Assembly: GCF_000022065.1 (NCBI RefSeq)
Contig: NC_011898.1
Coordinates: forward strand, 1,976,501-2,040,500
Direction: 5' to 3'
Length of the DNA: 64,000 nucleotides
From: Ruminiclostridium cellulolyticum H10
GTDB lineage: Bacteria > Bacillota > Clostridia > Acetivibrionales > DSM-1351
Part shown: positions 27,346 through 43,052 of the stretch, piece by piece
Layout of the letters: every line of letters starts with the position of its first letter
Numbering within the stretch: the first letter of the stretch is position 1
Translations under genes and position numbers: made by a program
Notes under the pieces: generated by a model
What the model was told of the DNA's origin: nothing
What the model saw: only the letters and a program-made list of their open reading frames with translations
The model's database searches: none

Positions 27346-28059
27346 ATGAGGAAGGTGATTTTACTGTCTCCAATTTACTATTTTTTAACATTTGTAGAGG
27401 GAATATTAACCTTTGTTTCACCTTGTATACTCCCAATGCTTCCTATATATTTCCTCTACCTGGCCGGAGAATCCGACAAAGAAATAAAACAATCAACTAC
27501 AGCCAAAGGCAGATTACTTGTAAATTCTATAGGGTTTGTTATCGGATTTACTGTGATATTTACTTTACTCGGAGCAACGGCTACCTCTTTGGGATATTTT
27601 CTGTCCAATCACAGGAATCTACTGGAGAAAATTAGCGGTTTAGTAATGATTTTATTCGGTCTTAACTTTATAGGTATACTAAAGATTAATTTTATAAATA
27701 TGGAAAAAAGAATTAATTTTCAATTCAAACGTCTGAAATTTATAAGCTCAATTTTATTTGGTATGGTTTTTGCCTTTGGATGGTCGCCCTGCCTGAGTTC
27801 CTTTTTAGGCTCTGCCCTTGCAATTGCCAGTAACTCAAAAACGGTCTTTCAAGGAATACTTTTACTTTTCTTTTTCTCTATTGGCCTCGGTATTCCGTTT
27901 ATTATTACTTCAATTATCTTTGAAAAGGTAAAAGGAGCTTTCAAAAAGATACAGGCACATAGCAAAACTATAAGTATTGTTTCAGGAGCACTTCTTATAG
28001 TAGCAGGTATTTTAGTATTTACAGGCAGCTTAAAATATTTTAACTACTTTGGTTTATAA
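27346..28059 (+). CDS. ccdA: CcdA/DsbD-family transmembrane electron carrier
   Basis: Integral membrane protein of about 237 residues with six helices. Redox Cys residues are visible in FVSPCILPMLP and in GWSPCLSSF, the pair that carries reducing equivalents from cytosolic thioredoxin across the membrane. The likely acceptor is the TlpA/ResA-like protein encoded 17 nt downstream. Start is ambiguous: ATG 27346 has a weak upstream site, while AGGAAGGTG lies inside the frame and points to a CTG at 27364 (giving a chain beginning at SPIYYF). Confidence 0.92.
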   Translation: MRKVILLSPIYYFLTFVEGILTFVSPCILPMLPIYFLYLAGESDKEIKQSTTAKGRLLVNSIGFVIGFTVIFTLLGATATSLGYFLSNHRNLLEKISGLVMILFGLNFIGILKINFINMEKRINFQFKRLKFISSILFGMVFAFGWSPCLSSFLGSALAIASNSKTVFQGILLLFFFSIGLGIPFIITSIIFEKVKGAFKKIQAHSKTISIVSGALLIVAGILVFTGSLKYFNYFGL

Positions 28060-28076
28060 AAACGGAGGAACGAATT

Positions 28077-28655
28077 ATGAATAAAAAGGTCAGTATTATT
28101 ATATGGACTCTCGCAGTATTTGCAATTATAGCGGCAGCTTATATCTTCTACTCAAAGAATAGACCTCAGAGTTTTGTAACACCGCCACAAGAAACTTCTT
28201 CACAGAGTCAATCATCCCAGAGCGACAAAGTTATGGCTCCTGATTTCGCTTTAAAGGATATGGATGGAAAAACAGTTAAACTCTCAGATTATAAAGGGAA
28301 AGTTGTAATACTCAATTTCTGGGCAGTCTGGTGTAAATATTGCAAGCTTGAAATGCCTGATTTAAATGAACTTGACAAAGAATTATCTCAAGAGAATAAC
28401 GCTGTTATATTAGCAATAGATGTTGAGGAATCACATGATACCGTAAAGAATTATCTTACTTCAAATGGTTTTGATTTAAAGGTTTTATTGGATAACGACG
28501 GATCTGTTTCCCGGAGCTATGGTGTTTCAGGCTATCCCACTACTTTTATTATTAATAAGGATGGTTCGGTATACACTTATATTCCTTATAAAACTGATAA
28601 GGCAACACTTTTACAGATTCTTGACCAATTAAAAGCTGAAGAACAGCTATTTTAA
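28077..28655 (+). CDS. Membrane-anchored TlpA/ResA-like thioredoxin
   Basis: 192 residues: N-terminal membrane anchor (~5-25), Ser/Gln linker, then an AhpC-TSA/TlpA domain from about residue 52. Redox site Cys86-x-x-Cys89 in WAVWCKYCK; the cis-Pro loop is GYPTTF. It acts outside the membrane, reducing disulfides with electrons delivered by CcdA encoded just upstream. Such pairs serve cytochrome maturation, spore cortex or repair of oxidised surface proteins; cytochrome genes are absent here. GGAGGAACG precedes the ATG. Its stop overlaps the stop of the convergent MFS gene. Confidence 0.9.
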   Translation: MNKKVSIIIWTLAVFAIIAAAYIFYSKNRPQSFVTPPQETSSQSQSSQSDKVMAPDFALKDMDGKTVKLSDYKGKVVILNFWAVWCKYCKLEMPDLNELDKELSQENNAVILAIDVEESHDTVKNYLTSNGFDLKVLLDNDGSVSRSYGVSGYPTTFIINKDGSVYTYIPYKTDKATLLQILDQLKAEEQLF

Positions 28656-29813
28656 AGTTCTCCTTGTCACGATTTTATTGATTTTCTCACTGCTCACAAG
28701 CATAACTATGAGTAATACTAAAATGAAGATGGGATAGAACTGAATCCCTACCACACCCGATAATACACCAATTGCCGGAGGTACCAGCGTTGTTCCCATA
28801 TAGGCAACAGCCATTTGAACACCCATGAGTTTTTCGGAATTGTTTTTACCAAAACGAACTGGCGTTTCATGCAACATAGATGGAAAAATAGGTGCACATC
28901 CCATTCCAATCAGAATAAGGCCCAGTAAGTTGACATAGGTTTGATTAGAAATCAGTAATAAGATAGCTCCGATACCAATTATGATTTGACCGCCTCGAAT
29001 CAAAGCAGGATTACTCCACTTGGTAGTAATAAACCCATTAACTAACCTGCCTAAAGTAATGCCAAGGTAATACATGGATATCCAACCCGCAGCAACATCA
29101 GCAGAAACACCTTTTGTCTGCACCAGATAACTGGCACCCCATAAACCCGCGGTGGTCTCCAATGCACAATAACAAAAGAAACTAAGAAGTGCTGGGGGTA
29201 TCCCCGGCAATCTAAAAACATGCTGGTTTTGATTTTCTACAGCAATGTCTTCTTGTCGGTTTTCACCAAACAACCTCCAAAGCGGTAATGAAAAAAGCAA
29301 AATAATCACCAGACAAATCTGAATGATGGCAACAGATAAGTAGCCCTTCTGCCACGAACCATTCTGAATAATGGCAACTGACATAATAACGGGGCCCGCT
29401 GTTGCACCGATTCCCCAGAAACAGTGAAGCCAACTCATGTGTCTGGCTGAAAAATGCAAAGCCACAAAGTTATTCAAAGCAGCATCAACTGCTCCCGCCC
29501 CGAGTCCCAATGGAATTGCCACAAGACATAGCCATATATAGTTTTGGCTAAAGGAAAATCCTAGCAAAGCCATGGCTGTCATAAATACGCTCATTAGTGT
29601 AAGTTTGCCAGTACCAAATTTCTGAATCAGTTTGCCACTGAGGATACTCGATATTATGGTTCCGCCTGATATAATCATAGAGATTAATCCTGCCCCAGCC
29701 ATTGGCACGGATAAATCAGTCCGAACCGTTGGCCATGCAGCACCAAGCATAGAATCAGGAAGTCCCAAACTGATAAAAGCAATATATATAATAATCAATA
29801 ATAATGTTGTCAT
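28647..29813 (-). CDS. MFS transporter, sugar/FucP-like
   Basis: Major facilitator of 388 residues with twelve predicted helices; LGLPDSMLGAAWPTVR in helix 1 and LSGKLIQKFGTGK in the 2-3 loop are typical of the FucP/YbjJ-like branch. The longest frame begins at 29849 inside the regulator gene, but GGAAGGCGG leads to ATG 29813, 14 nt after that gene's stop. Pairing with a ROK regulator suggests a sugar or sugar-derivative substrate. Confidence 0.85.
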   Translation of the reverse strand: MTTLLLIIIYIAFISLGLPDSMLGAAWPTVRTDLSVPMAGAGLISMIISGGTIISSILSGKLIQKFGTGKLTLMSVFMTAMALLGFSFSQNYIWLCLVAIPLGLGAGAVDAALNNFVALHFSARHMSWLHCFWGIGATAGPVIMSVAIIQNGSWQKGYLSVAIIQICLVIILLFSLPLWRLFGENRQEDIAVENQNQHVFRLPGIPPALLSFFCYCALETTAGLWGASYLVQTKGVSADVAAGWISMYYLGITLGRLVNGFITTKWSNPALIRGGQIIIGIGAILLLISNQTYVNLLGLILIGMGCAPIFPSMLHETPVRFGKNNSEKLMGVQMAVAYMGTTLVPPAIGVLSGVVGIQFYPIFILVLLIVMLVSSEKINKIVTRRTLK

Positions 29814-29826
29814 GGTACCGCCTTCC

Positions 29827-30825
29827 TTATCGTTGCCATTTGGGTTCAAATGGTTTTAATGATATTTGTTTGATACCCTCTGCAAAATCTTCGCCAAATA
29901 TATTTGATACAACGACGTCAGGCATCACTTCTGACTTAAGTATTTTTTTACAATCCTCAATGATAGGGTCAATCGATAATCTGGTGAGATTTTCTCTGTA
30001 AATGACGAGAATATCCGGATTTAAGAGGCAGGTAAATGTAAGGATTAATTTCTTAAGTGCCACTGAAATATTTTCAGAAACAAACGTTGGATTGTTCCAA
30101 TCAAATTCATCCGGAAGAAATTTAGCTTCACCTGCAAAGCCATCTTTTCCTTTATACATATTTCCATTGATAAAAATACCTACTCCTAATGGATACTTCT
30201 CTGGAATATAAATACCAATTACGTTTTTATCTTCACATTGATTAGAAATACAATATCCCAATACAGCGGCGTTAACGTCATTTTCAAAAACAACAGGTAT
30301 TTGAAATTGCTTTCTTAAATGTTCCACAAAGGCTTTTCCTTCAAGGGATATATAATCACTGTTCTCCATCTTCCCTCTTATTTCTTGTCCTGGCATACCA
30401 ATGCCTATCAATTTTATATTAGGATATTTTTTCAGCATTTTGTCAATTGTCAAATCGAAACTATACTCTGATATTTCATCTAGGGCAATCTTGTTAACTT
30501 CAATTACTTCACCATATAAATTAACAACGGCTATATGAGTTAAATCCTTCATTTCATACTCATTTGTATAAATAACTAATGCCATACTGTATTCCTCATT
30601 AAAGGAATATATGGTTGCCGGTCTGCCACCACTGGACACTTCCAGCTCATCAACAAGAATTTCTCCATTTCCCAAAAGCAGTTCCACAAGTGAATTAATT
30701 GTAACTACACTTAAACCTGTCAGATTTGCCAACTGGGGTTTTGTTGCTTTTTTATTTTCTTTTATCACCCTTCTAACTTTGTCTAAATTAATTTGTTTTA
30801 TTAAGTTTACATTCTTTAAAGCCAT
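29827..30825 (-). CDS. ROK-family transcriptional regulator
   Basis: 332 residues: N-terminal winged helix-turn-helix (~10-65, KATKPQLANLTGLSVVTINSLVELL) and a ROK/actin-like ATPase fold. The kinase-type glycine motif is present only weakly (GIGMPGQEI) and the zinc cysteines of active ROK kinases are absent, so it is probably a repressor of the NagC/XylR kind rather than a sugar kinase. It is the first gene of a two-gene unit with the MFS transporter and likely controls it in response to the transported sugar. Confidence 0.85.
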   Translation of the reverse strand: MALKNVNLIKQINLDKVRRVIKENKKATKPQLANLTGLSVVTINSLVELLLGNGEILVDELEVSSGGRPATIYSFNEEYSMALVIYTNEYEMKDLTHIAVVNLYGEVIEVNKIALDEISEYSFDLTIDKMLKKYPNIKLIGIGMPGQEIRGKMENSDYISLEGKAFVEHLRKQFQIPVVFENDVNAAVLGYCISNQCEDKNVIGIYIPEKYPLGVGIFINGNMYKGKDGFAGEAKFLPDEFDWNNPTFVSENISVALKKLILTFTCLLNPDILVIYRENLTRLSIDPIIEDCKKILKSEVMPDVVVSNIFGEDFAEGIKQISLKPFEPKWQR

Positions 30826-31050
30826 ACCGTTCCCCTTTGATAAGTTTATAAAGAGTATTTATAAAGTATCTTTAATATATCAGGTATGTAATTATATGTC
30901 AAGGTGGCTACATTGACTATCACACAAATCTTTGATTTAACCCCGAATATATTATTGTTTATTGGTGATACTAATTTCTGACAAAATAGATTTTGGGAGT
31001 AGATGCCAGAATCTTTTTTCTCATAGTTATTAGAAAGGAGGCAATAATTT

Positions 31051-31227
31051 ATGCAGAATGATGAAAAAATGGAATACAAAGTGGCCAGATACGATAAAGC
31101 AAGGGGCTGTGAGTGTGAATGTGGCTGTCAAGAACCAGTTAGTGTAGCTGTTTTTCCCAATGCAGCACAAATTAATCCCCAAGACCTAAAGACTATAAAT
31201 CCTAAAATTACAGTAATAAGTAATTAG
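31051..31227 (+). CDS. Candidate RiPP precursor peptide (CxCxCxC)
   Basis: A 58-residue open frame with AAAGGAGG ideally placed before the ATG. The N-terminal 19 residues are charged; then comes CECECGCQEP with four Cys alternating at residues 20, 22, 24 and 26. A Cys-free tail of 32 residues rich in Val, Ile, Asn and Pro ends in KITVISN. It is directly followed by a radical SAM-SPASM gene with a PqqD-like domain, the standard context of sactipeptide/ranthipeptide precursors. Four N-terminal Cys plus a tail that could supply acceptor residues resembles hairpin sactipeptides such as thurincin H. No named precursor family is recognised. Confidence 0.7.
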   Translation: MQNDEKMEYKVARYDKARGCECECGCQEPVSVAVFPNAAQINPQDLKTINPKITVISN

Positions 31228-31234
31228 AACAAAC

Positions 31235-31276
31235 AATCTAAGAAGGGGCGGATATTTAACTCTTCTTAGATTTTAT
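31235..31276 (+). terminator. Partial terminator between peptide and maturase genes
   Basis: AATCTAAGAAG and CTTCTTAGATT form a perfect 11-bp stem with a 16-nt loop, followed by TTATTTTA. It should let only part of the transcripts reach the maturase, giving excess precursor, as in many RiPP operons. Confidence 0.75.
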
Positions 31277-31296
31277 TTTAAAGGAAGGTTGTGAAT

Positions 31297-32613
31297 ATGG
31301 AAAATTTGTTACTACGACGTGAGCCGTTTGGTGGAATATTAGCAGAGCAAGAAGGATCAAAAGTAAGATTTCTTAATCATACGGGTTTTGAAATAACCTA
31401 TGGAATTGCCAATGGGTGGTCGGACAACGATATAATACATCACATCAAATCAAAATACGATGTATCAAACTCAAGTTTAGTTGAAAATGACATTAAGAAT
31501 TTTCGTCAAATGATTTCCAAAGTAAAAGATTGGGATACAGCTGAAAGCCTTTGGAAAGATTCTTCAGATAATAAGGAAATCGCTTCTATTCCAGCACTGT
31601 CAGCACCATTGGATTTATCCTGGGAAGTTACCAAAAGATGCAATCTTAACTGTCATCACTGTTATAATGATTCACATGCAATAAATTACGAGCCAAACTT
31701 AGAACAAATACATTCTGTCGTAAATGAACTTAGTTCAACCAGACTAAGGAATATTGTAGTAACGGGCGGAGAGCCTTTAATGCGGGAAGACTTGAAAACG
31801 ATTATTGGTTGGCTTCGTCCCCTGACATTTAATCTCACTTTAGCTACAAACGGAACTTTAATAAATGAACAAAACATACCGTGGCTTGGAGAAATGATTG
31901 ATCTAGTTAATTTAAGTCTAGATGCTGGCAATAAATTTGCATATGAAAAATTCAGGGGACGCAAGGGAACTTTTGATAAGTGCCTAAGAGGGTTGGAACT
32001 TTTAGTTCGAAAAAAAGTTCCTGTTGTAATTCAGACTACTATTTCTCGTTTTAACATAGATTCTCTCGAAGAGCTTGCAGATTTAGCCATTGAAAAGGGT
32101 GCTACAGCTTGGATTGCAAGGCTACCGGTGTACAGTGGCAGGGCTAACCAATATAAAGGAGATTTTCTCAGCAGGGATGAAATAGTAAAAAAAGCACCAT
32201 ATTTATCAGAAATCAGGTCACGATATAAAAGAAAGTTTGCAGAGTTACAGATCGGTGTCAACTTCGTTTGGAGTTATGGGAAACCTTTTAATTATGTTCA
32301 ACAGCAGGACAGGGCTATTTCTTGTGCAGCAGGAACTGTCAGTACGCTTTTAACGGCAGAAGGCACATTAGTTCCTTGTTCCTTATTTTCAAGTACAGAC
32401 TTTAGGTCTAACGTTGTATGGGACAATAACTTTCTTAAAGAATGGGAAATAGCTCAATGTATGCAAACTATGCGGTCTCTTCGTCTACATCAGATTAGGA
32501 AATGTTTCCATTGCGAAGACTATAAAGTGAAATGTAGTTCCGGATGTAGGGCTAAATCCTACCTGAGTGGGGATTTGTATTCAAAAGACCCAGACTGCGG
32601 TTATTTAAGCTAA
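31297..32613 (+). CDS. PqqD-radical SAM-SPASM peptide maturase
   Basis: 438 residues. N-terminal PqqD-like/RRE domain (~1-75) for leader-peptide binding; radical SAM domain with Cys115-x3-Cys119-x2-Cys122 (CNLNCHHC) holding the SAM-cleaving [4Fe-4S] cluster and VVTGGEPLMR; C-terminal SPASM domain with Cys in ISCAAG, LVPCSLF, RKCFHCEDYKVKCSSGC and DPDCGY for auxiliary clusters. Such enzymes install thioether or C-C crosslinks in ribosomal peptides. The frame opens at GTG 31291, but ATG 31297 has better spacing from GGAAGG. The substrate is presumably the 58-residue peptide encoded upstream. No exporter or protease gene adjoins. Confidence 0.9.
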   Translation: MENLLLRREPFGGILAEQEGSKVRFLNHTGFEITYGIANGWSDNDIIHHIKSKYDVSNSSLVENDIKNFRQMISKVKDWDTAESLWKDSSDNKEIASIPALSAPLDLSWEVTKRCNLNCHHCYNDSHAINYEPNLEQIHSVVNELSSTRLRNIVVTGGEPLMREDLKTIIGWLRPLTFNLTLATNGTLINEQNIPWLGEMIDLVNLSLDAGNKFAYEKFRGRKGTFDKCLRGLELLVRKKVPVVIQTTISRFNIDSLEELADLAIEKGATAWIARLPVYSGRANQYKGDFLSRDEIVKKAPYLSEIRSRYKRKFAELQIGVNFVWSYGKPFNYVQQQDRAISCAAGTVSTLLTAEGTLVPCSLFSSTDFRSNVVWDNNFLKEWEIAQCMQTMRSLRLHQIRKCFHCEDYKVKCSSGCRAKSYLSGDLYSKDPDCGYLS

Positions 32614-32647
32614 AAGAACTTATAACCCATCAAAAAAGGGCATAAAA

Positions 32648-32672
32648 CGCAGAAATTCTTCTGCGAGTTTTT
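32648..32672 (+). terminator. Intrinsic terminator of the RiPP locus
   Basis: CGCAGAA / TTCTGCG stem, 4-nt loop, then AGTTTTTT, 35 nt after the maturase stop. Confidence 0.85.
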
Positions 32673-32748
32673 TGCCTGTTTTTTGTTAAAAAATACTAAC
32701 TAATCGTCACTACATATTGCACATTTTGTATGCTAAAAGCTAATCCAT

Positions 32749-33075
32749 ATGAAAAAGAGAAGAACTTTTACCCCTGAACAGAAAACCAAAATAGTCCTCG
32801 AAGTCTTAAAAGAGGCACAAACATTGACAGAGATCGCTGCTAAGTACGAAATCCAACCAAATCAGCTTACGCGTTGGAAATCTGAGTTCATAAAGAATGC
32901 CAACCGTGCTTTCAGTGTTGATGCTGATGAAACCGAACAATTGAAGCAGGCACATGAAGCTCAGATTGACGAGCTTCACAGGCAAATAGGTCAGTTAACC
33001 GTAGAGCGTAACTGGCTCAAAAAAAAATCTGAACAATTCGGCCTCCTGACAGAGCCGCCAAAGCATGGTGGATAA
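32749..33075 (+). CDS. IS3 transposase orfA
   Basis: 108 residues: N-terminal helix-turn-helix of the transposase_8 family (RRTFTPEQKTKIVLEVLKE, LTEIAAKYEIQPNQLTRWK) and a C-terminal coiled coil with leucines (residues ~70-95). It binds the element ends. A run of nine A at 33018-33026 could be slippery, but orfB is in the frame reached by a +1 shift and has a stop just upstream, so classical -1 frameshifting is not supported. Confidence 0.92.
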   Translation: MKKRRTFTPEQKTKIVLEVLKEAQTLTEIAAKYEIQPNQLTRWKSEFIKNANRAFSVDADETEQLKQAHEAQIDELHRQIGQLTVERNWLKKKSEQFGLLTEPPKHGG

Positions 33076-33898
33076 AAAACATAAAAAGCTGACCATTACT
33101 CGGCAGTGCCAGTTGCTAGGGCTTAATCGGAGTACGCTTTACTATCAGCCGCACGAACCGGATCGCAGCGAAGAATACCGTGTTAAATGGCTTATTGATG
33201 AAATCTATACGAGAGACTCTTCACTTGGGTATCGGCGTATGACGCATATCCTTCATAGGGATCATGGCATAAACATCAACAAGAAGCGTACCCGCCGTTA
33301 TATGAGGGAAATGAACATTTATGGAATCTGCCCAGGACCCAACCTAAGTAAACGGGGCCGATTGAAGTATGTCCATCCATATCTTCTCAGAGGGCTTACA
33401 ATTGATAGGCCTAATCAGGTATGGTCAGTGGATATTACCTATTGTCGGATGCCCAAAGGTCATATGTATTTAGCAGCTATCATCGATTGGCATTCCAAAT
33501 ATATCGTCGGTTATGAATTATCCAATACCATGGATAAAAGTCTTGTCCTCAATCTGGTGAAAAGGACTATCACAGCACATGGGAAACCCGAAATTATTAA
33601 CAGTGATCAAGGATCCCAGTTTACCTGTGAAGATTATATAAATCTTTTGAAAGAGAACAACATAAAAGTATCAATGGATGGAAAAGGTCAAGCCCTTGAT
33701 AATATCTGTATTGAACGCTTCTGGCGCAGTCTGAAATGGGAGAAGCTATATCTTGAGGAATATTCCACACCTAAGCAATTACGTAACATTATTCAGGAGT
33801 ATATAGCTTATTACAACATTTACCGTCCACATCAGACCTTAGAGTATAGGACACCAGGAGAAGTTTATTATAGAACCCTAGCAGAAAAAACTGCCTAA
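33065..33898 (+). CDS. IS3 transposase orfB (DDE integrase)
   Basis: 277 residues: HTH_21-like N-terminus then an rve integrase core. DDE residues are visible in WSVDITYC, NSDQGSQFT and the Glu of DNICIERFWRSLKWE. The ATG overlaps the end of orfA by 11 nt, so coupled re-initiation probably drives its translation. It appears full length and potentially active. Confidence 0.93.
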   Translation: MVDKKHKKLTITRQCQLLGLNRSTLYYQPHEPDRSEEYRVKWLIDEIYTRDSSLGYRRMTHILHRDHGININKKRTRRYMREMNIYGICPGPNLSKRGRLKYVHPYLLRGLTIDRPNQVWSVDITYCRMPKGHMYLAAIIDWHSKYIVGYELSNTMDKSLVLNLVKRTITAHGKPEIINSDQGSQFTCEDYINLLKENNIKVSMDGKGQALDNICIERFWRSLKWEKLYLEEYSTPKQLRNIIQEYIAYYNIYRPHQTLEYRTPGEVYYRTLAEKTA

Positions 33899-34088
33899 GC
33901 TTAGGCAGATATCTATTCTCGCTGTAAGGCAGGAGCCTTTATAAAGCTACCAAGAATAGACGTTGGTATCCAAACTTGTCAATTAAACAACATTTTTAAG
34001 ACCTTGACAAGCTCTAACAAACACTATACACCCATCGAAAGGAGACCTAACTAAAATTTAAAAATGTTTGTCTTGACATTGGGGGGCA

Positions 34089-34343
34089 TTATATTTTGCC
34101 TTTTAAATATCCCATTATTTCTGATACACTATATTTAGGTAGTATCCTAACAAGCATATGTATGTGGTCCTTACAACACTCCGCTTCTATAATTTCTATA
34201 CCTTTCCTTTCGCACAGTTCCCTCAGCATCTTACCTATATCCTGCTTTATTTTCCCGTATATTATTTGTCGACGATACTTTGCTGCAAACACCAAATGAT
34301 ATTTGCATTCCCATGTCGTATGTGCTAAATTATTCTTGTCCAT
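34089..34343 (-). pseudogene. tnpA: Truncated IS200/IS605-type TnpA
   Basis: 84 residues corresponding to the first half of a Y1 transposase: HLVFAAKYRRQIIY and the HUH motif DHIHMLV are present. The frame stops right after GYLKGK, where intact relatives continue for ~65 residues including the catalytic Tyr helix. It cannot transpose by itself. Start ATG 34343 has GGAGGG upstream. Homology ends abruptly at about 34089, suggesting deletion or replacement by the neighbouring IS3 insertion. Confidence 0.85.
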
Positions 34344-34443
34344 TGTGGACCCTCCTTTGTTTTTTAATGTGGTTGGCAAACCTACACTATTTTAACATTG
34401 GAGGTTTTATTTTTTCTACTTGAAGCTAAAGCCTTATGGCTCA

Positions 34444-34641
34444 CCCCGGCTTAGCCGGGGGTTTATTGTTATATACAGTCAAAACCACCCGTAAAACGGG
34501 TGGCTTGTGTTAGCCCTATAAGGGCTTGTTACCGGCCAGCGCCTCAAGACGCTGGCTTTCACTTTGTTCAAGCTACTATTGCCTTTGCCACCTTTGCCGC
34601 CCCTGAAGGGACAACTTACTACTTGCTACCCCTTGAAGGGG
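34444..34641. repeat. Cluster of short palindromes at IS200-type ends
   Basis: Five clear hairpins follow one another: CCCCGGC-TTA-GCCGGGG (34444-34460), CCACCCGT-AAA-ACGGGTGG (34485-34503), AGCCCT-ATA-AGGGCT (34512-34526), GCCAGCG/CGCTGGC (34535-34556) and CCCCTTGAAGGGG (34629-34641). The first is the probable left-end hairpin of the truncated element and the second the right-end hairpin of the intact one; the others are unexplained. Confidence 0.7.
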
Positions 34642-35081
34642 TCTTCATACTCTTTCACGCTTAGTTTATCTACCATAATATCGTGCTTTTCCTGCTCTTG
34701 GATATACTTTCTAATAGTTGCTTCATTAAGCCCTACAGTACTCACATAGAAGCCCTCTGCCCAAAAATGTCTATTTCCGAACTTATACTTTAGGTTTGCA
34801 TGCTTATCGAATATCATCAATGCACTTTTTCCCTTAAGATAACCCATAAATGTTGAAACTGATATCTTTGGTGGTATACTTACTAACATGTGTATATGAT
34901 CTGGCATTAGATGCCCTTCAAGTATTTCTACTCCCTTATACTTGCATAATCGTATCAATATTTCTCGTATGCTTTGTTTGTATTGATTGTATATTACTTT
35001 TCGTCTATACTTTGGAGTGAATACTATGTGATACTTACACATCCATTTGGTATGTGCTAAACTATTTTCTTTATTTGCCAT
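34626..35081 (-). CDS. tnpA: IS200/IS605-type transposase TnpA
   Basis: 151 residues, full length for Y1 HUH transposases. HUH motif is PDHIHMLVS; the catalytic Tyr is in the helix ATIRKYIQEQEKHD. It cuts and rejoins single-stranded DNA at hairpin ends. ATG 35081 has AAAGGTG 6 nt upstream, preferred to GTG 35090. The SD lies within a large inverted repeat (see 35083-35148), so expression is probably kept very low. Confidence 0.92.
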   Translation of the reverse strand: MANKENSLAHTKWMCKYHIVFTPKYRRKVIYNQYKQSIREILIRLCKYKGVEILEGHLMPDHIHMLVSIPPKISVSTFMGYLKGKSALMIFDKHANLKYKFGNRHFWAEGFYVSTVGLNEATIRKYIQEQEKHDIMVDKLSVKEYEDPFKG

Positions 35082-35082
35082 T

Positions 35083-35148
35083 AAAATCACCTTTTCCCTC
35101 GTTAATCTAGCAGCTTGAACAACTCTATTTTAACGAAAAGGTGATTTT
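35083..35148 (-). promoter_or_regulatory. RBS-sequestering hairpin of tnpA
   Basis: AAAATCACCTTTT (35083-35095) and AAAAGGTGATTTT (35136-35148) are a perfect 13-bp inverted repeat, extended by CGTTAA/TTAACG. In the message it hides the AAAAGGTG ribosome-binding site, and on the other strand it ends in a T run, acting against read-through. This is the arrangement known to silence IS200. Confidence 0.75.
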
Positions 35149-35256
35149 TTTGTATAACTACTGTCGCGCACCCGCATAGCGGGTGGTTTATTATTTCGTA
35201 TGTCTCCGTTTCTCTGTTGAGAAACTCCAACATACTCAACAGGCTAAAGCCCATAA

Positions 35257-35290
35257 TAAAAATTCCCTCAAACCTAAGTCTGAGGGAATA
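35257..35290 (-). terminator. Intrinsic terminator of the BFD-like gene
   Basis: TTCCCTCA (35263-35270) and TGAGGGAA (35281-35288) make a perfect 8-bp stem with TTTTTA following on the minus strand. Confidence 0.85.
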
Positions 35291-35319
35291 AAAACACATA
35301 ATATTTACAAAAATTTTAT

Positions 35320-35664
35320 TTACCTTCCTAGATCAATGATGTTTTGAATAAGCCCCTTACATTTCCCACACTCTTCGCCAGTTTCTTCATCTACACCTGT
35401 TCCGGCACCTGTTATTTCTCCAACCTTTTCTACTGTATCAGCACCATTTTTAACTGCATTTACTACTGTTTCTAAAGAAACTTTCTTACAGCCACAAACA
35501 GAAGAAAGAATCGCGTTTAATTCACTTTTACACCCTTCACACTCAGTACATACTCCTGTAAGTTCAACTAATTCCTCTATCGTTCTCGCACCAGAAGTCA
35601 TTGCCTTTCTGATAGATAGATAATCTATATTATTTTTTGTACAAATTACTCTATTCTTTGCCAT
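35320..35664 (-). CDS. Tandem BFD-like [2Fe-2S] protein
   Basis: 114 residues made of two BFD-like [2Fe-2S] domains (Pfam Fer2_BFD) in tandem. Domain 1 (~6-55): Cys8 and VCTECEGC; domain 2 (~57-112): VCGC then EECGKCKGLI. Helical segments RKAMTSGARTIEELVELTG and VNAVKNGADTVEKVGEITG are the repeated helix-turn pattern. Domain 1 has one Cys where classical BFDs have CxC, partly replaced by an extra Cys downstream. It may mediate electron transfer or iron release. AAGGAGAAC lies before the ATG. Not obviously linked to its neighbours. Confidence 0.8.
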   Translation of the reverse strand: MAKNRVICTKNNIDYLSIRKAMTSGARTIEELVELTGVCTECEGCKSELNAILSSVCGCKKVSLETVVNAVKNGADTVEKVGEITGAGTGVDEETGEECGKCKGLIQNIIDLGR

Positions 35665-35808
35665 ATCATTAGTTCTCCTTCATATGAATTTTTATTTACC
35701 TATTATAGCAGCTTTTATTAGTTATTCTTAATTAGTAATTGATAATTCATTAATATTAAATATTAATGTAACAGAAATTAGCTATAAGGCCAGCTATTAA
35801 AAAATAGT

Positions 35809-37608
35809 TTACTTATACTCGAAATCCGGTATCTGAGTCCAGCGGTTTTGAAGATAATGAGCTGCCAGCTTGGGACGCCTATCCCTAGTAAAGGCTCCCT
35901 TTTTGTTCCCTTCAACCCTCATAATTCCTTGAATAGTCTGGAAATCTGCGAAGTTCCAGACATGCTCACCTACAAAGCAGTCATATTTATCAAAAATCTC
36001 GTGATTTGCCCTTAAAAATTCTACCTGATATTCCTCAGTAAACATAGTGGGTGTAGCCAAATGAAGCCCTGCCACTGTATCTGCTCCATACTCTGTAAAG
36101 ATAATCGGTTTGCCGATGGTTTTCCAGTAATCTAATTCAATGCTCAAAGCCTGCTTTGCCGCATTCAGATCGCCGCCGTAAATATACCAGCCATAATAGC
36201 GGTTTAAGCAGATTACATCCATAGCAGGAAGGGTTTTGTCTGTTTTGTATTCACCTTGCACACCGACAATTGTCACTGGTCGGTTCTGCGGGTCCACCTT
36301 ATGAGCTAAATCATAAAGAGGCTTATAGTAATTATAGGAGCTTTCCGGGAAAGCAGTAGTATCGGACTCATTGGCTATGGACCACATAACAATGCAGGGA
36401 TGGTTTTTGTCTCTTTCAATCATGTCTACAACCACATCATGATGGTGCTGGTGGGTATGCAATACCTCAAAGGTATCTCTCTTACCTCCACCGGACATTG
36501 CACCAAAATTGACATTGACACCAACAGCCGGAGTTTCATCTATTACCACAAAGCCTTCACGGTCACAGAGATTCATCATTTCCTCAGAATAGGGATAGTG
36601 ACTTGTCCTGAAGGAATTTGCTCCTATCCACCTCAACAAAGACAAGTCCTTTACATTCAATACTTCATCAAGCCCCCTGCCGTGAGCAATAAAATCCTCA
36701 TGCTTACCAAACCCCTTAAAGTAGAAGGGCTTACCGTTAATTAAGAATTGACTGTCCTTGACTTCGACAGTCCGTACTCCAAAGGACTGCTCATAACGGT
36801 CCTCACCAAAGGTGATTTCAGCTGCATAAAGATAAGCGTTTAAGGGCTGCCACAGGTGCACATTCTCAATAATAAAGGTTCCCTCATTTCCTTTAGCCTC
36901 AGCAACAACTTCTCTCTCTTCATCATATATCGTAAGCGTTGTTTCCCCCTGACCTATTGTATCAATTTTATAATAAACTGAAGCTTTTGTTCCCTCAAGG
37001 GAAGGAACAATGGTAATATCTTCTATAAATTTTTTTGGTGTGCTGTATATCTTGACAGGGCGATGAATTCCGGCATAATTAAAGAAGTCAAAGTTCGGTG
37101 CATTCTGCTTTTTAGGAGTGACACCGGGAACCGGTGGGAGTACACCGCCAAGCATATTGCCGCCTACCTCACTTCCTACCGGGAGAGTACTGTAATCTAC
37201 CACATTATTTACAGCAACAGTCAGCAGGTTGTTTTGAGATTTAACCTTATCTTGAATCTCAACTTCGAAGGGCAGAAAACCGCCTTTATGTTCCGTAATA
37301 AGCTGCCCATTCAGGTAAACCTTTGCATAATGAGTGACTGCACCAAAGCGAAGAACAATACGCTGTCCCTCCAAAGTCTTTGGAATAGCTATCTCTCTTT
37401 GATAGAATACATAACCGTAGTGATCACGCAGGTCTATAGATTCTTTCTGATCATTATAGGAAGCTGGTACTGCCATAGTCATAGGATTTTTTAGCTTATT
37501 GGCATACCATTGCTGCTGGAAGCCTGTTCCGTCGTCAGCTTTAAAGCTCCAGATGCCGGAAAGGTCAATTAGTGTTCTTGATGAATTTAAAACAGGATAT
37601 AACATCAT
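35809..37608 (-). CDS. uidA: Beta-glucuronidase, GH2
   Basis: 599 residues, the length of UidA-type enzymes, without signal peptide. GH2 sugar-binding, immunoglobulin-like and TIM-barrel domains are in order. The acid/base Glu is in WSIANESDT and the nucleophile Glu in IFTEYGADT; GKHEDFIAHGRGLD and RTSHYPYSEE are typical of beta-glucuronidases. It frees D-glucuronate from imported glucuronides in the cytosol, feeding the operon that ends with it. Two adjacent ATGs (37608 and 37605) are possible starts. Confidence 0.93.
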   Translation of the reverse strand: MMLYPVLNSSRTLIDLSGIWSFKADDGTGFQQQWYANKLKNPMTMAVPASYNDQKESIDLRDHYGYVFYQREIAIPKTLEGQRIVLRFGAVTHYAKVYLNGQLITEHKGGFLPFEVEIQDKVKSQNNLLTVAVNNVVDYSTLPVGSEVGGNMLGGVLPPVPGVTPKKQNAPNFDFFNYAGIHRPVKIYSTPKKFIEDITIVPSLEGTKASVYYKIDTIGQGETTLTIYDEEREVVAEAKGNEGTFIIENVHLWQPLNAYLYAAEITFGEDRYEQSFGVRTVEVKDSQFLINGKPFYFKGFGKHEDFIAHGRGLDEVLNVKDLSLLRWIGANSFRTSHYPYSEEMMNLCDREGFVVIDETPAVGVNVNFGAMSGGGKRDTFEVLHTHQHHHDVVVDMIERDKNHPCIVMWSIANESDTTAFPESSYNYYKPLYDLAHKVDPQNRPVTIVGVQGEYKTDKTLPAMDVICLNRYYGWYIYGGDLNAAKQALSIELDYWKTIGKPIIFTEYGADTVAGLHLATPTMFTEEYQVEFLRANHEIFDKYDCFVGEHVWNFADFQTIQGIMRVEGNKKGAFTRDRRPKLAAHYLQNRWTQIPDFEYK

Positions 37609-37637
37609 CTAACCTCTTTTCGAATAGATTATTTTCT

Positions 37638-38654
37638 TCAACGATTCATTTCACTCTGTTGTTCGCCTTGGTGAGCTTTGATAATCCTTTCAATTTCACC
37701 GAAGCTGGTTACAATCAGGTCTCCGGGAATGGTGCTTTTCACAGCGGCCATGGCGTTTCCGAATTCCAGAGCTTTTTGTAGATCGGTATACTTAAGCATA
37801 CCGAACAGTACACCGGCTACATAAGCATCGCCGCTTCCAATGCGGTCTACAACTTCAATTTTCTCATATGCATGTTCATTATAAAAACGATCGTCCTTAG
37901 AACTATAGATAGTGGAACTAAAGCTATGTTGGCTTGCACCTATTACCTTGCGCTCAGTTGTGGCGACTACAGGTATTCCATAATCACTGCAATAGCTTTT
38001 CATAATATCATGTAGCTCTCCTGTCTTTCGGAACATCTTGCGAGTGGTTTCTTCAGATATAAATAGAATATCAAGTAAAGGTAGTACTTTCTCAATGGTT
38101 CTTCTCGCTTCATCTTCACTCCAAAGGTTTGCCCTATAGTTCACATCAAAGGAGAGGATTGCACCTGCTTCCTTGAAACGCTTCATCATATTCTGAGCGG
38201 CAGAACGAGTGGCTTCTCCTAAAGCCAAGGTAATGCCGCTTGTGTGGAATAATCGAGTGCTGCCGTAAGCTTCAGGTGGGATTTCATCAAACTTAATCCG
38301 ATTGATGGCCGATCCCTTCCGATCATAGATTATACTTGGCTTTCGAGGGCTTGCACCGCTTTCGTAGTAATATATACCCAGGCGTGTGTCGGGATTTTTG
38401 TCATATATAATGTAGTCATCCGCAACACCCAATGCTCGTATTTCGTTCATAATGAACTGACTCACGTCATGCACCGGCATTCGTGAAATGATGGCAGTGT
38501 TGAGTCCAAGGGCTGCTACACCTGCGGCAATATTGAGTTCTGAGCCGCCGGCCTGCTTTTCAAAGCTGCCGCTGCGGCTGAATCTTTGCTTTCCTGGAGG
38601 AGACAGACGGAGCATCATTTCACCAAAGCTAATAATATCAAAGTTTTTTTCCAT
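37638..38654 (-). CDS. kdgK: 2-keto-3-deoxygluconate kinase
   Basis: PfkB-family sugar kinase of 338 residues. The N-terminal SFGEMMLRLSPPGKQR and GGSELNIAAGVAALG, and the C-terminal catalytic GSGDAYVAGVLFG, match KdgK. It phosphorylates KDG produced by UxuA to KDPG, the substrate of the aldolase encoded just upstream. It sits between eda and uidA in the operon. Confidence 0.9.
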   Translation of the reverse strand: MEKNFDIISFGEMMLRLSPPGKQRFSRSGSFEKQAGGSELNIAAGVAALGLNTAIISRMPVHDVSQFIMNEIRALGVADDYIIYDKNPDTRLGIYYYESGASPRKPSIIYDRKGSAINRIKFDEIPPEAYGSTRLFHTSGITLALGEATRSAAQNMMKRFKEAGAILSFDVNYRANLWSEDEARRTIEKVLPLLDILFISEETTRKMFRKTGELHDIMKSYCSDYGIPVVATTERKVIGASQHSFSSTIYSSKDDRFYNEHAYEKIEVVDRIGSGDAYVAGVLFGMLKYTDLQKALEFGNAMAAVKSTIPGDLIVTSFGEIERIIKAHQGEQQSEMNR

Positions 38655-38707
38655 ACAATTATCCTCTTTATTTACGATTAAGTATGAATAGTCTACAATG
38701 TGACAAG

Positions 38708-39670
38708 CTACTTTTGTACTAAATGCAGGGCAAAACCGAAAATTTCGTCCTTCAAATAAATTGATTTGATTTTACCCTTAGGGTCAGATACAGCGGATTC
38801 ATGATTAAAACTATAGCCTTTATGCTTAATGTAAGAGATTGCACGCTCCATAGAATTCGTTTGAACAGCTATATGACCTTTAGTTCCAAAGTGAGGCTGC
38901 TTCATAACTTCAATAGCTTCACTGACAAAGATTGAAGCGTTATTGTCTGTCTGTTGAAAACCAAATAGGTTAGTCAAAAAATCAGCTATTTTCTTTGCTT
39001 CCTGATCATTCCCGGCAGTAATTCCCACATGTTTGAGCCTAAAGCCCAGCATGATTTCTATCGCGTTTCGAGTCAAAAGCGTAATTTGTTCAAAATCTCC
39101 TGCTTCAACAAGCTCATCTTTAGCCATCCAGCTTCCGCCGCAGGCTACAACATTAGGAAAAGAAAGGTAGTCACTCATATTTTGCGGTGTCAATCCTCCT
39201 GTAGGCATAAATTTCATCTCAGCATAAGGAGCAGCCATTGATTTAATCATTTTGAGACCGCCTGCAGCTTCGGCCGGAAAAAACTTGACTACCTTTAAAT
39301 CGAGCTCAATAGCCTGCTCAACATCGCTGGGATTCGAGCAGCCGGGAATGATGAGTATTCCTTTTTCTTTACAGTATTTAACTACCTTTGGATTAAAGCC
39401 CGGACTTACGATGAAGGCTGCCCCGGCTTCAATAGATTGATCTACCTGTTCTTTATTAAGAATGGTTCCTGCACCCACAAGCATTCCCGGAAGAGTTTCT
39501 CTGACTCTGCGAATAGCTTCAGCGGCTGCTTTGGTACGAAAAGTTATTTCGGCACAAGGGAGTCCTCCGTTATAAAGGGCTTGCGCAAGGGGTACTGCTT
39601 TTTCAACATCTTCTATTTTGATGACAGGAACAATTCCCAATTCACCTATGCGTTTTAAAATATCATCCAT
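38708..39670 (-). CDS. eda: KDPG/KHG aldolase fused to a VOC-like domain
   Basis: 320 residues. The first ~210 are a class I Eda aldolase: GLPCAEITFRT, GAGTILN, SPGFNP, the Schiff-base Lys in LKVVKFFPAE and PTGG. The remaining ~110 residues (LKHVGITAGNDQEAKKIADFL..GHIAVQT) look like a vicinal-oxygen-chelate/glyoxalase fold unit, absent from E. coli Eda (about 213 residues). The aldolase splits KDPG to pyruvate and glyceraldehyde-3-phosphate. What the VOC-like part does is unknown; similar fusions occur in clostridia. Confidence 0.9.
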   Translation of the reverse strand: MDDILKRIGELGIVPVIKIEDVEKAVPLAQALYNGGLPCAEITFRTKAAAEAIRRVRETLPGMLVGAGTILNKEQVDQSIEAGAAFIVSPGFNPKVVKYCKEKGILIIPGCSNPSDVEQAIELDLKVVKFFPAEAAGGLKMIKSMAAPYAEMKFMPTGGLTPQNMSDYLSFPNVVACGGSWMAKDELVEAGDFEQITLLTRNAIEIMLGFRLKHVGITAGNDQEAKKIADFLTNLFGFQQTDNNASIFVSEAIEVMKQPHFGTKGHIAVQTNSMERAISYIKHKGYSFNHESAVSDPKGKIKSIYLKDEIFGFALHLVQK

Positions 39671-39687
39671 ATTATCCCTCCTTATAT

Positions 39688-40539
39688 CTAAACACCCGAG
39701 TAGGAGCTGAAACCTCCGTCAACCGGAAGAACCACTCCGGTAACAAAACTGGAGGCAGGCTTATATAATAGAAAAAGTAAGGCTCCGATTAGTTCCTCAG
39801 GCTCGCCGAAACGTCCCATTGGGGTACTGTTCAGGATTTTGCCTGTTCTTTCTGTGGGGGTTCCATCAGGGTTAAAAAGCAAGCTTGCATTCTGCTTAGT
39901 TGAGAAAAAACCTGGAGCTATTGCATTGACACGAATATTTGTTTTTGAAAAATGCACAGCAAGCCACTGTGTAAAGTTGCTTATAGCTGCTTTTGCTCCA
40001 GAATAAGCGGGAATTTTGGTTAAAGGTGTAAAGGCATTCATGGAAGAGATATTTATAATACTCGCATCTTCTTTATTTAACATATCGGGAGCGAAAACTT
40101 GAGTAGGAATCAAGGTGCCTATAAAGTTAAGATTAAAGACAAGTTCAACACTTTTGGTATCCAGATTAAAAAAGGTTACCAAGTCAGATTTATCAAAGTC
40201 TCCAGAGAAATAATATTCGTTTGTTGTAGTAGCAAGGGGCTTATTACCTCCTGCACCATTAATTAAAATGTCACAGGTTCCAAGTTCTGAATTAACTTTA
40301 GCTCTCACCTGTTCCAGAGTTTCCTTATCAAGGACATTGCATTGAAAAGCTTTGGCTGTATACCCATCTGAGACAATCTCTTCGGCATGCTTTTGAGCTT
40401 TTTCCAAAGTACGGTCCAGAAGTACCACTTTAGCACCGCAGCGGGCAATAGCCTTTGCAAACATACTGCAAAGCACGCCCCCTGCACCGGTAACAACTGC
40501 AACCTTATTTGATAAATCAACATCTATTGGATTTTTCAT
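39688..40539 (-). CDS. SDR-type D-fructuronate reductase (YjmF/UxuB-like)
   Basis: 283 residues. SDR features: TGAGGVLCS glycine loop, NGAGG, a Ser in NISSMNAF and YSGAKAA (Tyr-x3-Lys). The long insertion GGNKPLATTTNEYYFSGDF is typical of the YjmF branch that converts D-fructuronate to D-mannonate with NADH, between UxaC and UxuA. It is not homologous to the larger E. coli UxuB. Start ATG 40539 follows a GAGGAGG-rich site. Confidence 0.88.
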   Translation of the reverse strand: MKNPIDVDLSNKVAVVTGAGGVLCSMFAKAIARCGAKVVLLDRTLEKAQKHAEEIVSDGYTAKAFQCNVLDKETLEQVRAKVNSELGTCDILINGAGGNKPLATTTNEYYFSGDFDKSDLVTFFNLDTKSVELVFNLNFIGTLIPTQVFAPDMLNKEDASIINISSMNAFTPLTKIPAYSGAKAAISNFTQWLAVHFSKTNIRVNAIAPGFFSTKQNASLLFNPDGTPTERTGKILNSTPMGRFGEPEELIGALLFLLYKPASSFVTGVVLPVDGGFSSYSGV

Positions 40540-40562
40540 TATAATACCTCCTCATAATAAAA

Positions 40563-41609
40563 TCATCGGTTAAGCTTTTCGAGGGTTTCCCAGATACCAT
40601 TTATATAGCTTGCACCTAACGCACGGTCATATAATCCATATCCGGGTTTCCCAGTTTCTCCCCAAATCATGCGGCCATGATCAGGTCTTAAATATCCGTC
40701 AAAATGGTTTTTATGAAGAGAGGACATTATTTTTACGATATCCAGTGAGCCATAGGATGAGAAGTGAGCACTTTCTTCAAAGCTGCCATCCTCAAGTATT
40801 TTTATATTGCGAACATGCATAAAGTGAATTCTGTTCTGTTTACTGTATTTATCAACCATATTATAGATATCGTTAAAGGTTCCGCTGCCTAGTGAACCTG
40901 TACAGAAGGTCAATCCATTGTAAGGACTGTCAACCAGCTTCAGGAACCTGTCAAGATCTTTCTCACTTGATATAATGCGTGGGAGTCCAAAAATGTTCCA
41001 TGGCGGGTCGTCAGGATGTATTGCCATCTTGACATCTGCTTCCTCAGCAACAGGAATAATTTCTTTTAAAAAATACTCCAAGTTTTCCCATAGTCTTTCT
41101 TCATCAACCTTTGAATACTCCTCAAACAGAGTCTTCAAATCCTCCTTTTTATAGCTTGAATCCCAGCCCGGCAGGGATAATTCGCCCGTCAGTGGATTCA
41201 TTTTTTCCAATTGCTCTTTGTAATAAACCAGTGCAGTGGAACCGTCAGGAAGCTCTTTATCCAGCTGCGTCCTAGTCCAGTCAAATACCGGCATGAAATT
41301 ATAACAGATGCATTTTACTCCAGCTTCACCCAGCCTCTTTATATTTTCCTTATAATTATCAATATATTTTTTACGGGATTGAAGACCTAACTTGATATCC
41401 TCATGGACAGGTACACTTTCTATAACATCGAGTACAAGCCCTTTGTCCTCCACTGATTTTTTCAGTGCTGCAATACTGTCAATACTCCATACTCCGCCTA
41501 CGGGTACATCATAGAGTGCAGTGACAATACTATGCATATTAGGGATTTGGCGAATATACTCCAGCTTGATCGGATCGGTTTCACCATACCAACGAAATGA
41601 TAATTTCAT
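40563..41609 (-). CDS. uxuA: Mannonate dehydratase
   Basis: 348 residues of a TIM-barrel, xylose-isomerase-like fold. [20 protein letters not shown] at the start, AIHPDDPPW and [11 protein letters not shown] at the C-terminus are UxuA hallmarks; metal-binding His/Asp lie in those. It converts D-mannonate to 2-keto-3-deoxygluconate. The frame opens at 41639, but GAGGTAGG precedes ATG 41609, which matches usual UxuA N-termini. Confidence 0.93.
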
Positions 41610-41663
41610 TTTACCTACCTCTTTCATTTTGATTAACAAAATAGTTTACTTTTATTTATACTT

Positions 41664-43052
41664 TTAAAGCGGTTTTAATTTATCGTCTCCAGTATGCTTT
41701 TCTTTTAAATAGGCTTGAAGCTCAGAAAGCTTCCCTTTGCCAAGGGGATACCAAAACTGCAGTATAATAAATATTACAAAGTAACATATAGCCGGTCCCA
41801 AAGTAGCTAATCCTTTAATACTGTTGGCTACCTCTGGGGTCTGAACAACTGCTGGCTGACCTTTAGGAACAGAAATATAACCTATTGCAGCAAGTGCAAA
41901 GCCGCTCAATCCCCCGGACAGTGCTTGACCAATCTTCCGGGAAAAAGAATAGACAGAGTATATCGTACCATCTTCCCGTGTACCTGTAAGGTATTCCTGA
42001 TAGTCAACTACATCTGTAATAAATGCCCAAATAGTAGCATTAAAGAAACCTACACCCAGTCCTCCAAAGAAAAGAAATGTAATAAATACCCATGGACTTC
42101 GTATGGGCAAAAGGAACATAAGAAGAAATATTATGGCAGAGAGAAGGACACCGATTGCCGCTGATTCTTTTTTGCCAAATTTTTTTACTATTGTACTGAC
42201 GGCAGGTGCTATGATAAGAATCGGTAAAACTGTAACAACACCTGCAACAGTAAGGGCTATTGTATTTTGAAAGTAATCCTTAAACAGGTAGCTGTTAAGT
42301 CCTTGACTAAGCAGAGTCGCAAAAATGACAGCAAGAGCTGCGAAGATTAAGGAAATAAGGCCTCTATTCCTAACAATACCCTTTGCAGTCACTTTAAAAT
42401 CAAACTTTTGCTTTACTCCAACCTGAGTTTTTACACGTTCGATACACAGGTAATAGCATAGGAGATAGCATATTGTAGCACAGATAGCAAAGACGACAGC
42501 TAATTTTGTGAATCGGCTTCCAACGGGTTTATTGTTTACAAACACAACCAAGGGTACAATAAGGCCTATAGCAATGCCTCCCAAAGATGAACCCATGGAT
42601 CTGAAGGTTGATAGTGATGCACGTTCAATTGGATCGGTACTAATGACTGATGCCATTGAGCCATAGGGAATATTGACTGTACTATACAAGGTACCCCAAA
42701 CGACATAGGTCAAAAGGGAGTAAATCATATGTGTATTTATATCCATATTGGGGAAATAGGTAAAAGTAAGTACGCCAAAAATAATCATGGGCAAAAACAT
42801 CCTTAGAATCCAAGGTCTGAACTTTCCTCGCTTTGTTGCAGGGCGGGAGTCTATAAAACGACCCCATAATACATCTGCAAAAGCATCCCAAATCCGGGCA
42901 GCAATAAAGATGGTGCCGACAGTAACTGGACTTAGTCCGACCACATCGGTATAAAACAACATTAAATATGCCGAGATATAAAAGAAGAAAAAGTCATTAC
43001 CAAAATCTCCAAACAAGTATCCAATTTTATCGCGGTTGTCAAAGGGTCTCAT
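41664..43052 (-). CDS. GPH-family glucuronide/hexuronide symporter
   Basis: Twelve-helix transporter of 462 residues, glycoside-pentoside-hexuronide:cation symporter family (UidB/YicJ-like). DKIGYLFGDFGNDFFFFYIS at the start, DAFADVLWGRFIDSRPATKRGKFRPWIL in loop 2-3 and a long final helix are typical. Operon placement between uxaC and uxuA, with uidA downstream, suggests import of glucuronides or glucuronate. ATG 43052 with AAGAGGTG is the start; it overlaps the uxaC end by 14 nt. Confidence 0.9.
   Translation of the reverse strand: MRPFDNRDKIGYLFGDFGNDFFFFYISAYLMLFYTDVVGLSPVTVGTIFIAARIWDAFADVLWGRFIDSRPATKRGKFRPWILRMFLPMIIFGVLTFTYFPNMDINTHMIYSLLTYVVWGTLYSTVNIPYGSMASVISTDPIERASLSTFRSMGSSLGGIAIGLIVPLVVFVNNKPVGSRFTKLAVVFAICATICYLLCYYLCIERVKTQVGVKQKFDFKVTAKGIVRNRGLISLIFAALAVIFATLLSQGLNSYLFKDYFQNTIALTVAGVVTVLPILIIAPAVSTIVKKFGKKESAAIGVLLSAIIFLLMFLLPIRSPWVFITFLFFGGLGVGFFNATIWAFITDVVDYQEYLTGTREDGTIYSVYSFSRKIGQALSGGLSGFALAAIGYISVPKGQPAVVQTPEVANSIKGLATLGPAICYFVIFIILQFWYPLGKGKLSELQAYLKEKHTGDDKLKPL

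Follow-up and report, generated by a model that had tools for sequence, protein, structure and literature searches.

Ruminococcin C (RumC2) is, by analogy, the nearest worked example for the gene pair described below: its donors are Cys22 and Cys24, and its authors favour a single hairpin in which Cys24 is bridged to Glu31 and Cys22 to Asn35, the inner of the two forming first, without wholly excluding the other connection (PMC6779426), and its leader comprises 19 residues (PMC8188230). In the sporulation killing factor (SKF), the donor is Cys4 and the acceptor is Met12 (PMC8172795). The pair analysed here lies in a 64,000-nucleotide stretch of the single-contig, 4,068,724-base genome of Ruminiclostridium cellulolyticum H10 (NC_011898.1, positions 1,976,501 to 2,040,500; hereafter, the window) and consists of a 58-codon open reading frame (ORF) with four alternating cysteines and, 69 nucleotides (nt) downstream, a gene for a radical S-adenosylmethionine (SAM)-SPASM peptide maturase (Table 1). 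With moderate confidence, we read the two genes as a minimal operon for a ribosomally synthesized and post-translationally modified peptide (RiPP), in which the 58-amino-acid (aa) peptide would be the precursor and the enzyme a predicted thioether-forming maturase. This is likely an orphan, cysteine-rich RiPP gene pair, seen so far in one bacterial genome; its putative product would be a new modified peptide, a plausible one, that falls within a familiar broad class.

RumC2 and its enzyme RumMC2 combine a radical SAM-SPASM enzyme bearing a RiPP recognition element (RRE) with CxC donors and C-terminal acceptors (PMC6779426, PMC8188230), and the pair resembles them in the enzyme type, with a weakly supported RRE, and in the CxC spacing of its putative donors, with putative acceptors on their C-terminal side; the length of the RumC2 leader is matched by the position of the first cysteine of the 58-aa peptide, residue 20. 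Unlike RumC, where two Cys pairs give two hairpins and there are five precursors and two enzymes, here there are four alternating cysteines and two genes. The likeness is one of layout. Radical SAM RiPPs have a short precursor gene next to that of a radical SAM-SPASM enzyme, as is the case here, and the putative Cys donors in the N-terminal half, followed by a Cys-free stretch in which the putative acceptors would lie, correspond to the usual single-hairpin sactipeptide layout.

The peptide begins with MQNDEKMEYKVARYDKARG, continues with CECECGC (part of GCECECGC, with Cys at residues 20, 22, 24, and 26), and ends with 32 residues (27-58) that contain no Cys; it has no His either. Approximately residues 1-19 would form the putative leader. 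The earlier note had described this frame, with its cysteine run and Cys-free tail, as a well-initiated one, and both points hold. A strong Shine-Dalgarno site precedes this ORF, and one of the AGGAG/GGAGG type is present in only 1 of the 99 false ORFs of 45-75 aa that lie inside the 38 long ORFs of the window. With 7.2 bits, the codon usage of the ORF scores as is typical for true genes of the window: of 1000 58-codon pieces drawn from the 38 long ORFs, 32% score at or below this value, which is reached by 5 of the 99 false ORFs. The CxCxCxC pattern occurs in this ORF alone among the 810 mechanical ORFs of at least 20 aa in the window; for four cysteines placed randomly on 57 positions, the probability of exact alternation is about 1.3e-4. 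Searches of Pfam, NCBIfam, PHROGs, and PDB with the peptide returned nothing above noise.

The pair is laid out like a two-gene operon, its two genes being separated by a hairpin and followed by a terminator. The intergenic hairpin, which begins 7 nt past the peptide stop codon, has a folding energy of -15.7 kcal/mol (z -3.95; none of 200 shuffles is equally stable); it is not flagged by the consensus terminator scan, which has a loop limit of 8. It is a probable partial terminator, an element that RiPP operons commonly carry behind precursor genes. The fold of the terminator region at 32614-32690 has a z of -3.92. A consensus scan for a promoter before the peptide found none on the plus strand, where the region holds 6 sites against 5.9 expected.

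Table 1. Features of the peptide-maturase pair (window coordinates)
Feature	Position	Strand	Basis or remark
Shine-Dalgarno site AAAGGAGG, 9 nt 5' of the peptide ATG	31034..31041	+	sequence
Putative precursor peptide ORF, 58 aa	31051..31227	+	sequence, codon usage; leader/core border predicted
Codons for CECECGC (Cys20-Cys26)	31108..31128	+	sequence
13-pair hairpin between the precursor and maturase genes, followed by a T-rich stretch	31235..31272	+	fold
Shine-Dalgarno AAGGAAGG of the maturase gene, 8 nt 5' of ATG 31297	31281..31288	+	sequence
Radical SAM-SPASM peptide maturase, 438 aa	31297..32613	+	ATG start; alternative GTG at 31291
PqqD-like region (RRE) at the N-terminus (residues 1-80), with weak support	31297..31536	+	profile matches
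Radical SAM core, residues 110-264	31624..32088	+	PF04055, 84.3 bits
Seven-cysteine region of SPASM type (residues 343-434)	32323..32598	+	sequence pattern
Intrinsic terminator 3' of the maturase gene	32648..32665	+	terminator scan and fold

The maturase carries the radical SAM motif CNLNCHHC (CX3CX2C) and, in its C-terminal part, the SPASM cysteines C343-X12-G-X4-C361 and C403-X2-C-X6-C-X3-C417...C434; the Pfam SPASM model does not match, and the assignment is read from this pattern. The nearest solved relatives include SkfB, PqqE, CteB, and SuiB, all of them RiPP maturases. SkfB is the best by sequence, with 4.8e-26 for profile A1 over the core region alone; in the structural alignment it is 16% identical at a root-mean-square deviation (rmsd) of 5.8, and in a second fold search it ranks third, over residues 7-385. 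PqqE is second by profile. The earlier note had assigned three domains to this enzyme, of which the radical SAM and SPASM regions are borne out and the PqqD-like leader-binding domain is weakly supported. The matches that point to the latter are to the WgkC PqqD-family model (E 4.7e-4) and, weakly, to MftB (residues 5-29, E 0.053); the SuiB alignment starts at residue 2 by sequence and at position 4 of the profile, being collinear from the N-terminus, and that of CteB starts at 18, with the profile only. The region is modelled as E-E-H-H-H, with the strands at a predicted local distance difference test score (pLDDT) below 40.

The maturase fits no named family, all NCBIfam scores being far below the cut-offs (best 25 of 89 families). 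By family model, its radical SAM-SPASM half is most like those of the mycofactocin (MftB/MftC), PqqD/PqqE, AhbD, and NirJ2 systems, again far below the equivalog cut-offs (MftC, 122.7 vs 265 bits; PqqE, 98.7 vs 381.35). The same holds for the sactisynthase models, which are narrow (AlbA, 70.6 vs 850; StsB, 87.5 vs 625), and for the ranthipeptide/SCIFF models (TIGR03974, 70.4 vs 425; PapB NF047865, 71.6 vs 340). An assignment as a heme or cofactor maturase, suggested by the best family scores, was dropped because every one of these scores is far below its cut-off.

The sole full-length relative found, the L040 enzyme from a genome of the same phylum (G420), is 26-28% identical end to end, shares LRxExFGG with the maturase near the N-terminus, and in the alignment retains all seven cysteines of the SPASM region. 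Directly upstream of this gene, at 414-656 of L040, is an 80-aa ORF with eight cysteines and a Shine-Dalgarno site, which has no match in NCBIfam or Pfam. None of its cysteines is in CxC spacing, in contrast to the four alternating ones of the 58-aa peptide. This ORF supports the pairing of enzyme and peptide and not the CxCxCxC pattern. As a control, we took the radical SAM genes of loci L039-L059 and L082-L095 with repeats dropped, that is, 36 distinct genes with sufficient upstream room, 12 further ones being set aside because the edge is too near. Seven of the 36 are preceded, within 400 nt, by the end of an ORF on the same strand that is 25-120 aa long and has at least four Cys; in four cases (the window maturase, L040, L048, and L053), it also has a Shine-Dalgarno site. 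Because all four belong to the 10 genes of 400-500 aa and none to the 26 others, the pairing is unlikely to arise by chance, in a small sample and with the window gene and L040 having prompted the test. In both L053 (3043-3225, minus strand) and L048 (2949-3203, minus strand), the small Cys-rich ORF with a Shine-Dalgarno site lies upstream of a 450-aa radical SAM gene, both loci being from the same taxonomic order; the L048 ORF presumably resembles a Nif11-type precursor.

For the RiPP precursor-maturase pair that the earlier note proposed, the operon anatomy, the solved relatives, and the Cys-rich ORF upstream of L040 speak in favour, with the PqqD domain as the weaker part. Under the favoured reading, the 58-aa peptide would be the substrate of the maturase, and its first ~19 residues a leader held at the N-terminus of the enzyme by the PqqD-like domain. 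A 5'-deoxyadenosyl radical generated at the radical SAM cluster would abstract hydrogen from acceptors within the tail that lacks Cys, the SPASM clusters would help to transfer electrons onward, and the thiols of Cys20, 22, 24, and 26 would close up to four thioether rings, with a loss of 2 Da each and 8 Da in total. The simplest ring pattern would be that of a nested hairpin, with Cys26, as the innermost cysteine, reacting before the others and with the nearest acceptor. The intergenic hairpin may let the precursor outnumber the enzyme. Export and leader removal would have to depend on proteins encoded elsewhere, unless the product remains intracellular; an antimicrobial or signalling role seems the likeliest, as a guess.

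A bolder version, which we hold to be rather unlikely, is that the four alternating cysteines lie on one face of a beta-strand and are stapled to the next strand in a zipper-like ladder of four sulphur bridges, made by an orphan family of radical SAM-SPASM enzymes; the peptide would then be a founding example of such a thioether RiPP. Extending the RumC2 pattern, with the innermost Cys joined to the residue at +7 and the next Cys to one four residues further, we can only infer that the acceptors would fall near Ala33, Asn37, Ile41, and Asp45. Crosslinking of the peptide as in the favoured reading would give the radical SAM RiPPs a new ring pattern and a maturase outside all of the NCBIfam models seen; the system would be very small, one 58-codon gene and one enzyme, and easily tested in E. 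coli. Orphan radical SAM gene pairs are common, and if the peptide is not crosslinked, this is one more among many.

The earlier note took the spacing of the cysteines to be tighter than in known sactipeptides and the crosslink geometry to be possibly new, which is only partly right. CxC donors are not new, being known from RumC2, and the same spacing is present, as CPC and CSC, in another putative sactipeptide of the same genome; the run of four alternating cysteines alone seems unusual. Literature searches for CXCXCXC, CXCXC, and 'alternating cysteine', which are weak tests, did not find four alternating cysteines in a row with a radical SAM enzyme. The CPC/CSC peptide, 63 aa with SCPCASVCSCASRC, is encoded at 3238-3429 of L120 (G000:C1 383037-383228), downstream of another radical SAM gene, and contains both CxC motifs in CPCASVCSCASRC; the radical SAM gene there has CNLRCNYC, GGEPLL, TNG, and SPASM-like cysteines, and a glycosyltransferase-like gene is also present. 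These genes fit the Ccel_0328-0333 cluster of Murphy 2011, with the 63-aa peptide as the candidate for the Ccel_0332 precursor (PMC3132745). That putative thuricin-like cluster (Ccel_0328-0332) is similar to our pair in the combination of a radical SAM enzyme and a CxC peptide and differs in the enzyme and accessory genes (PMC3132745). In the sections consulted, Letzel 2014 (PMC4289311) and Murphy 2011 (PMC3132745) name the Ccel_0328 cluster alone for this strain.

No close relative of the maturase or the peptide was found in the genome, viral-contig, plasmid, and phage sets searched, which did not include metagenome contigs. Among genome contigs, 84 stretches fit a pattern for close maturase relatives and none was confirmed, and viral contigs gave no pattern match; alignment A1 retrieved 4 distant loci among 56 genome-contig stretches and none among 104 viral ones. 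The whole-genome searches covered phylum, class, and order sets, which overlap and each include the own genome: the maturase was matched in two of the 398 phylum genomes (E 1e-40; up to four candidates scored per genome), one of the 291 class genomes (1e-33; up to five), and 11 of the 58 from the order (1e-25), where the matches outside the own genome are 25-32% identical. For the class to which G420 belongs, matches at 1e-45 were obtained in 51 of 82 genomes, and those listed other than L040 start at profile position 88 or later, thereby lacking the greater part of the N-terminal region; within the G420 order, the L040 enzyme is matched at 1e-35 in 2 of 9 genomes, itself included. Plasmid records that match the maturase number 454, all below 60% identity, and those with a named feature among the 15 listed are annotated as NirJ, MftC, PqqE/PqqD, or TIGR04053. 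The peptide at E<=1 is matched in 28 of 100 genomes, including its own, with the best other E at 0.003, and at E<=0.005 only in its own among 398 phylum genomes; plasmids yielded two matches, with E of 2 and 6, and phages none. Of these short peptide-match loci, nine were inspected: none has a long ORF with CX3CX2C, and the CxC-like runs that some of them contain (e.g., L016) were taken as chance.

Several observations weigh against a thioether-forming pair. The sets searched gave no homologue of the peptide and no close one of the enzyme, so that selection on the pairing or on the cysteines is not seen. The Pfam PqqD score of the maturase N-terminus, 16.1 bits, is below the cut-off of 23.4; the N-terminal profile alone gives SuiB at E 0.11 and CteB at 0.4, and the N-terminal region of the L040 enzyme matches no PqqD-type model. 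The structure model of the maturase is poor (mean pLDDT 53.6, with residues 331-438 below 35 per block); its best fold match is viperin, in a broad test that covered residues 100-397 only, and among the fold matches that extend to the N-terminus, those to CteB and TigE have rmsd values of 11-14 and so count for little. The L040 intergenic gap folds just mildly better than chance (z -2.27). No dedicated ABC (ATP-binding cassette) exporter, protease/peptidase, or immunity gene is among the ten proteins typed in 27346-35664, the pair included, as the earlier note had remarked of the adjacent genes; the neighbouring major facilitator superfamily (MFS) transporter could in principle serve as the exporter. 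Finally, the top family scores are those of AhbD (heme b synthase; 143 bits vs a cut-off of 500), NirJ2, NirJ, and MftC, which are not known as thioether makers, and SuiB and PqqE form bonds of other kinds.

These kinships bear on an alternative that we consider unlikely, namely, that the two genes are a RiPP pair with another maturase chemistry (a C-C or C-O crosslink, epimerisation, decarboxylation, or a cyclopropane) that leaves the four cysteines free for metal or disulphides. WgkB joins the four enzymes just named among the best family scores, none of them a sactisynthase, and PqqE is the second solved relative; however, the first by sequence, SkfB, is a sactisynthase, and Cys-rich ORFs precede both the maturase and its one full-length relative.

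It is very unlikely that the enzyme has another substrate and that the peptide is either a small protein that binds metal through CxCxCGC, in the manner of a zinc knuckle, or some unrelated small protein. The zinc knuckle-like run CECECGC recurs in 24 viral-contig stretches, which also counts against the favoured reading; some of these ORFs have a distal CxxC pair suggestive of zinc binding (e.g., L105 and L096), and by a motif test no radical SAM gene is present in any of the 24, so the viral ORFs were dropped as relatives of the peptide. However, the peptide has neither His nor distal Cys, has no match above noise in the four databases, and shares a probable operon with the maturase.

The genes that flank the pair encode, on the opposite strand, a ROK regulator, which is beside the peptide, and the MFS transporter; directly downstream are insertion sequence (IS) 3-type transposase genes. 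TlpA, to the left of the pair, is matched at E<=1e-20 in 11 of 11 genus genomes and the ROK regulator at E<=1e-40 in 4 of 11, its own included, with at most 43% identity elsewhere; the glycosidase to the right is found in 1 of 11, its own. We compared the neighbourhoods of three relatives, 17-20 kb each, with window ORFs of at least 110 aa as queries, which leaves out the peptide. CcdA and TlpA adjoin in all three at 67-80% identity, with a histidine kinase beside them in one (L081); to the right of TlpA, none of the query ORFs is present in any of the three, and therefore the pair sits in a species-variable region. The long genes of the window right of TlpA are absent from the three stretches, which, together with the IS3-type genes and the lack of an orthologue in the genus searches, would agree with a recently acquired or decaying remnant beside an IS3-type element, with the transporter and other parts lost and no product. 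We find this quite improbable, given that both frames, the Fe-S cysteines, the ribosome sites, and the terminator are intact and that the G+C content of the two genes, 0.373 and 0.376, equals the window average of 0.374. That the short ORF is a cysteine-sensing leader for attenuation of the downstream gene is hardly credible: the Cys run is indeed followed by a terminator-like hairpin, but 106 nt separate it from the end of the final Cys codon, so that a ribosome stalled at the run would miss the hairpin, and leaders of this type are generally shorter than 58 codons.

The variable region extends over 28647-43000 and holds, in addition to the IS3-type transposase genes (32749-33898), an IS200-type transposase gene (34626-35090). 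To the right of the pair, an apparent partial IS200 copy is located at 34089-34379.
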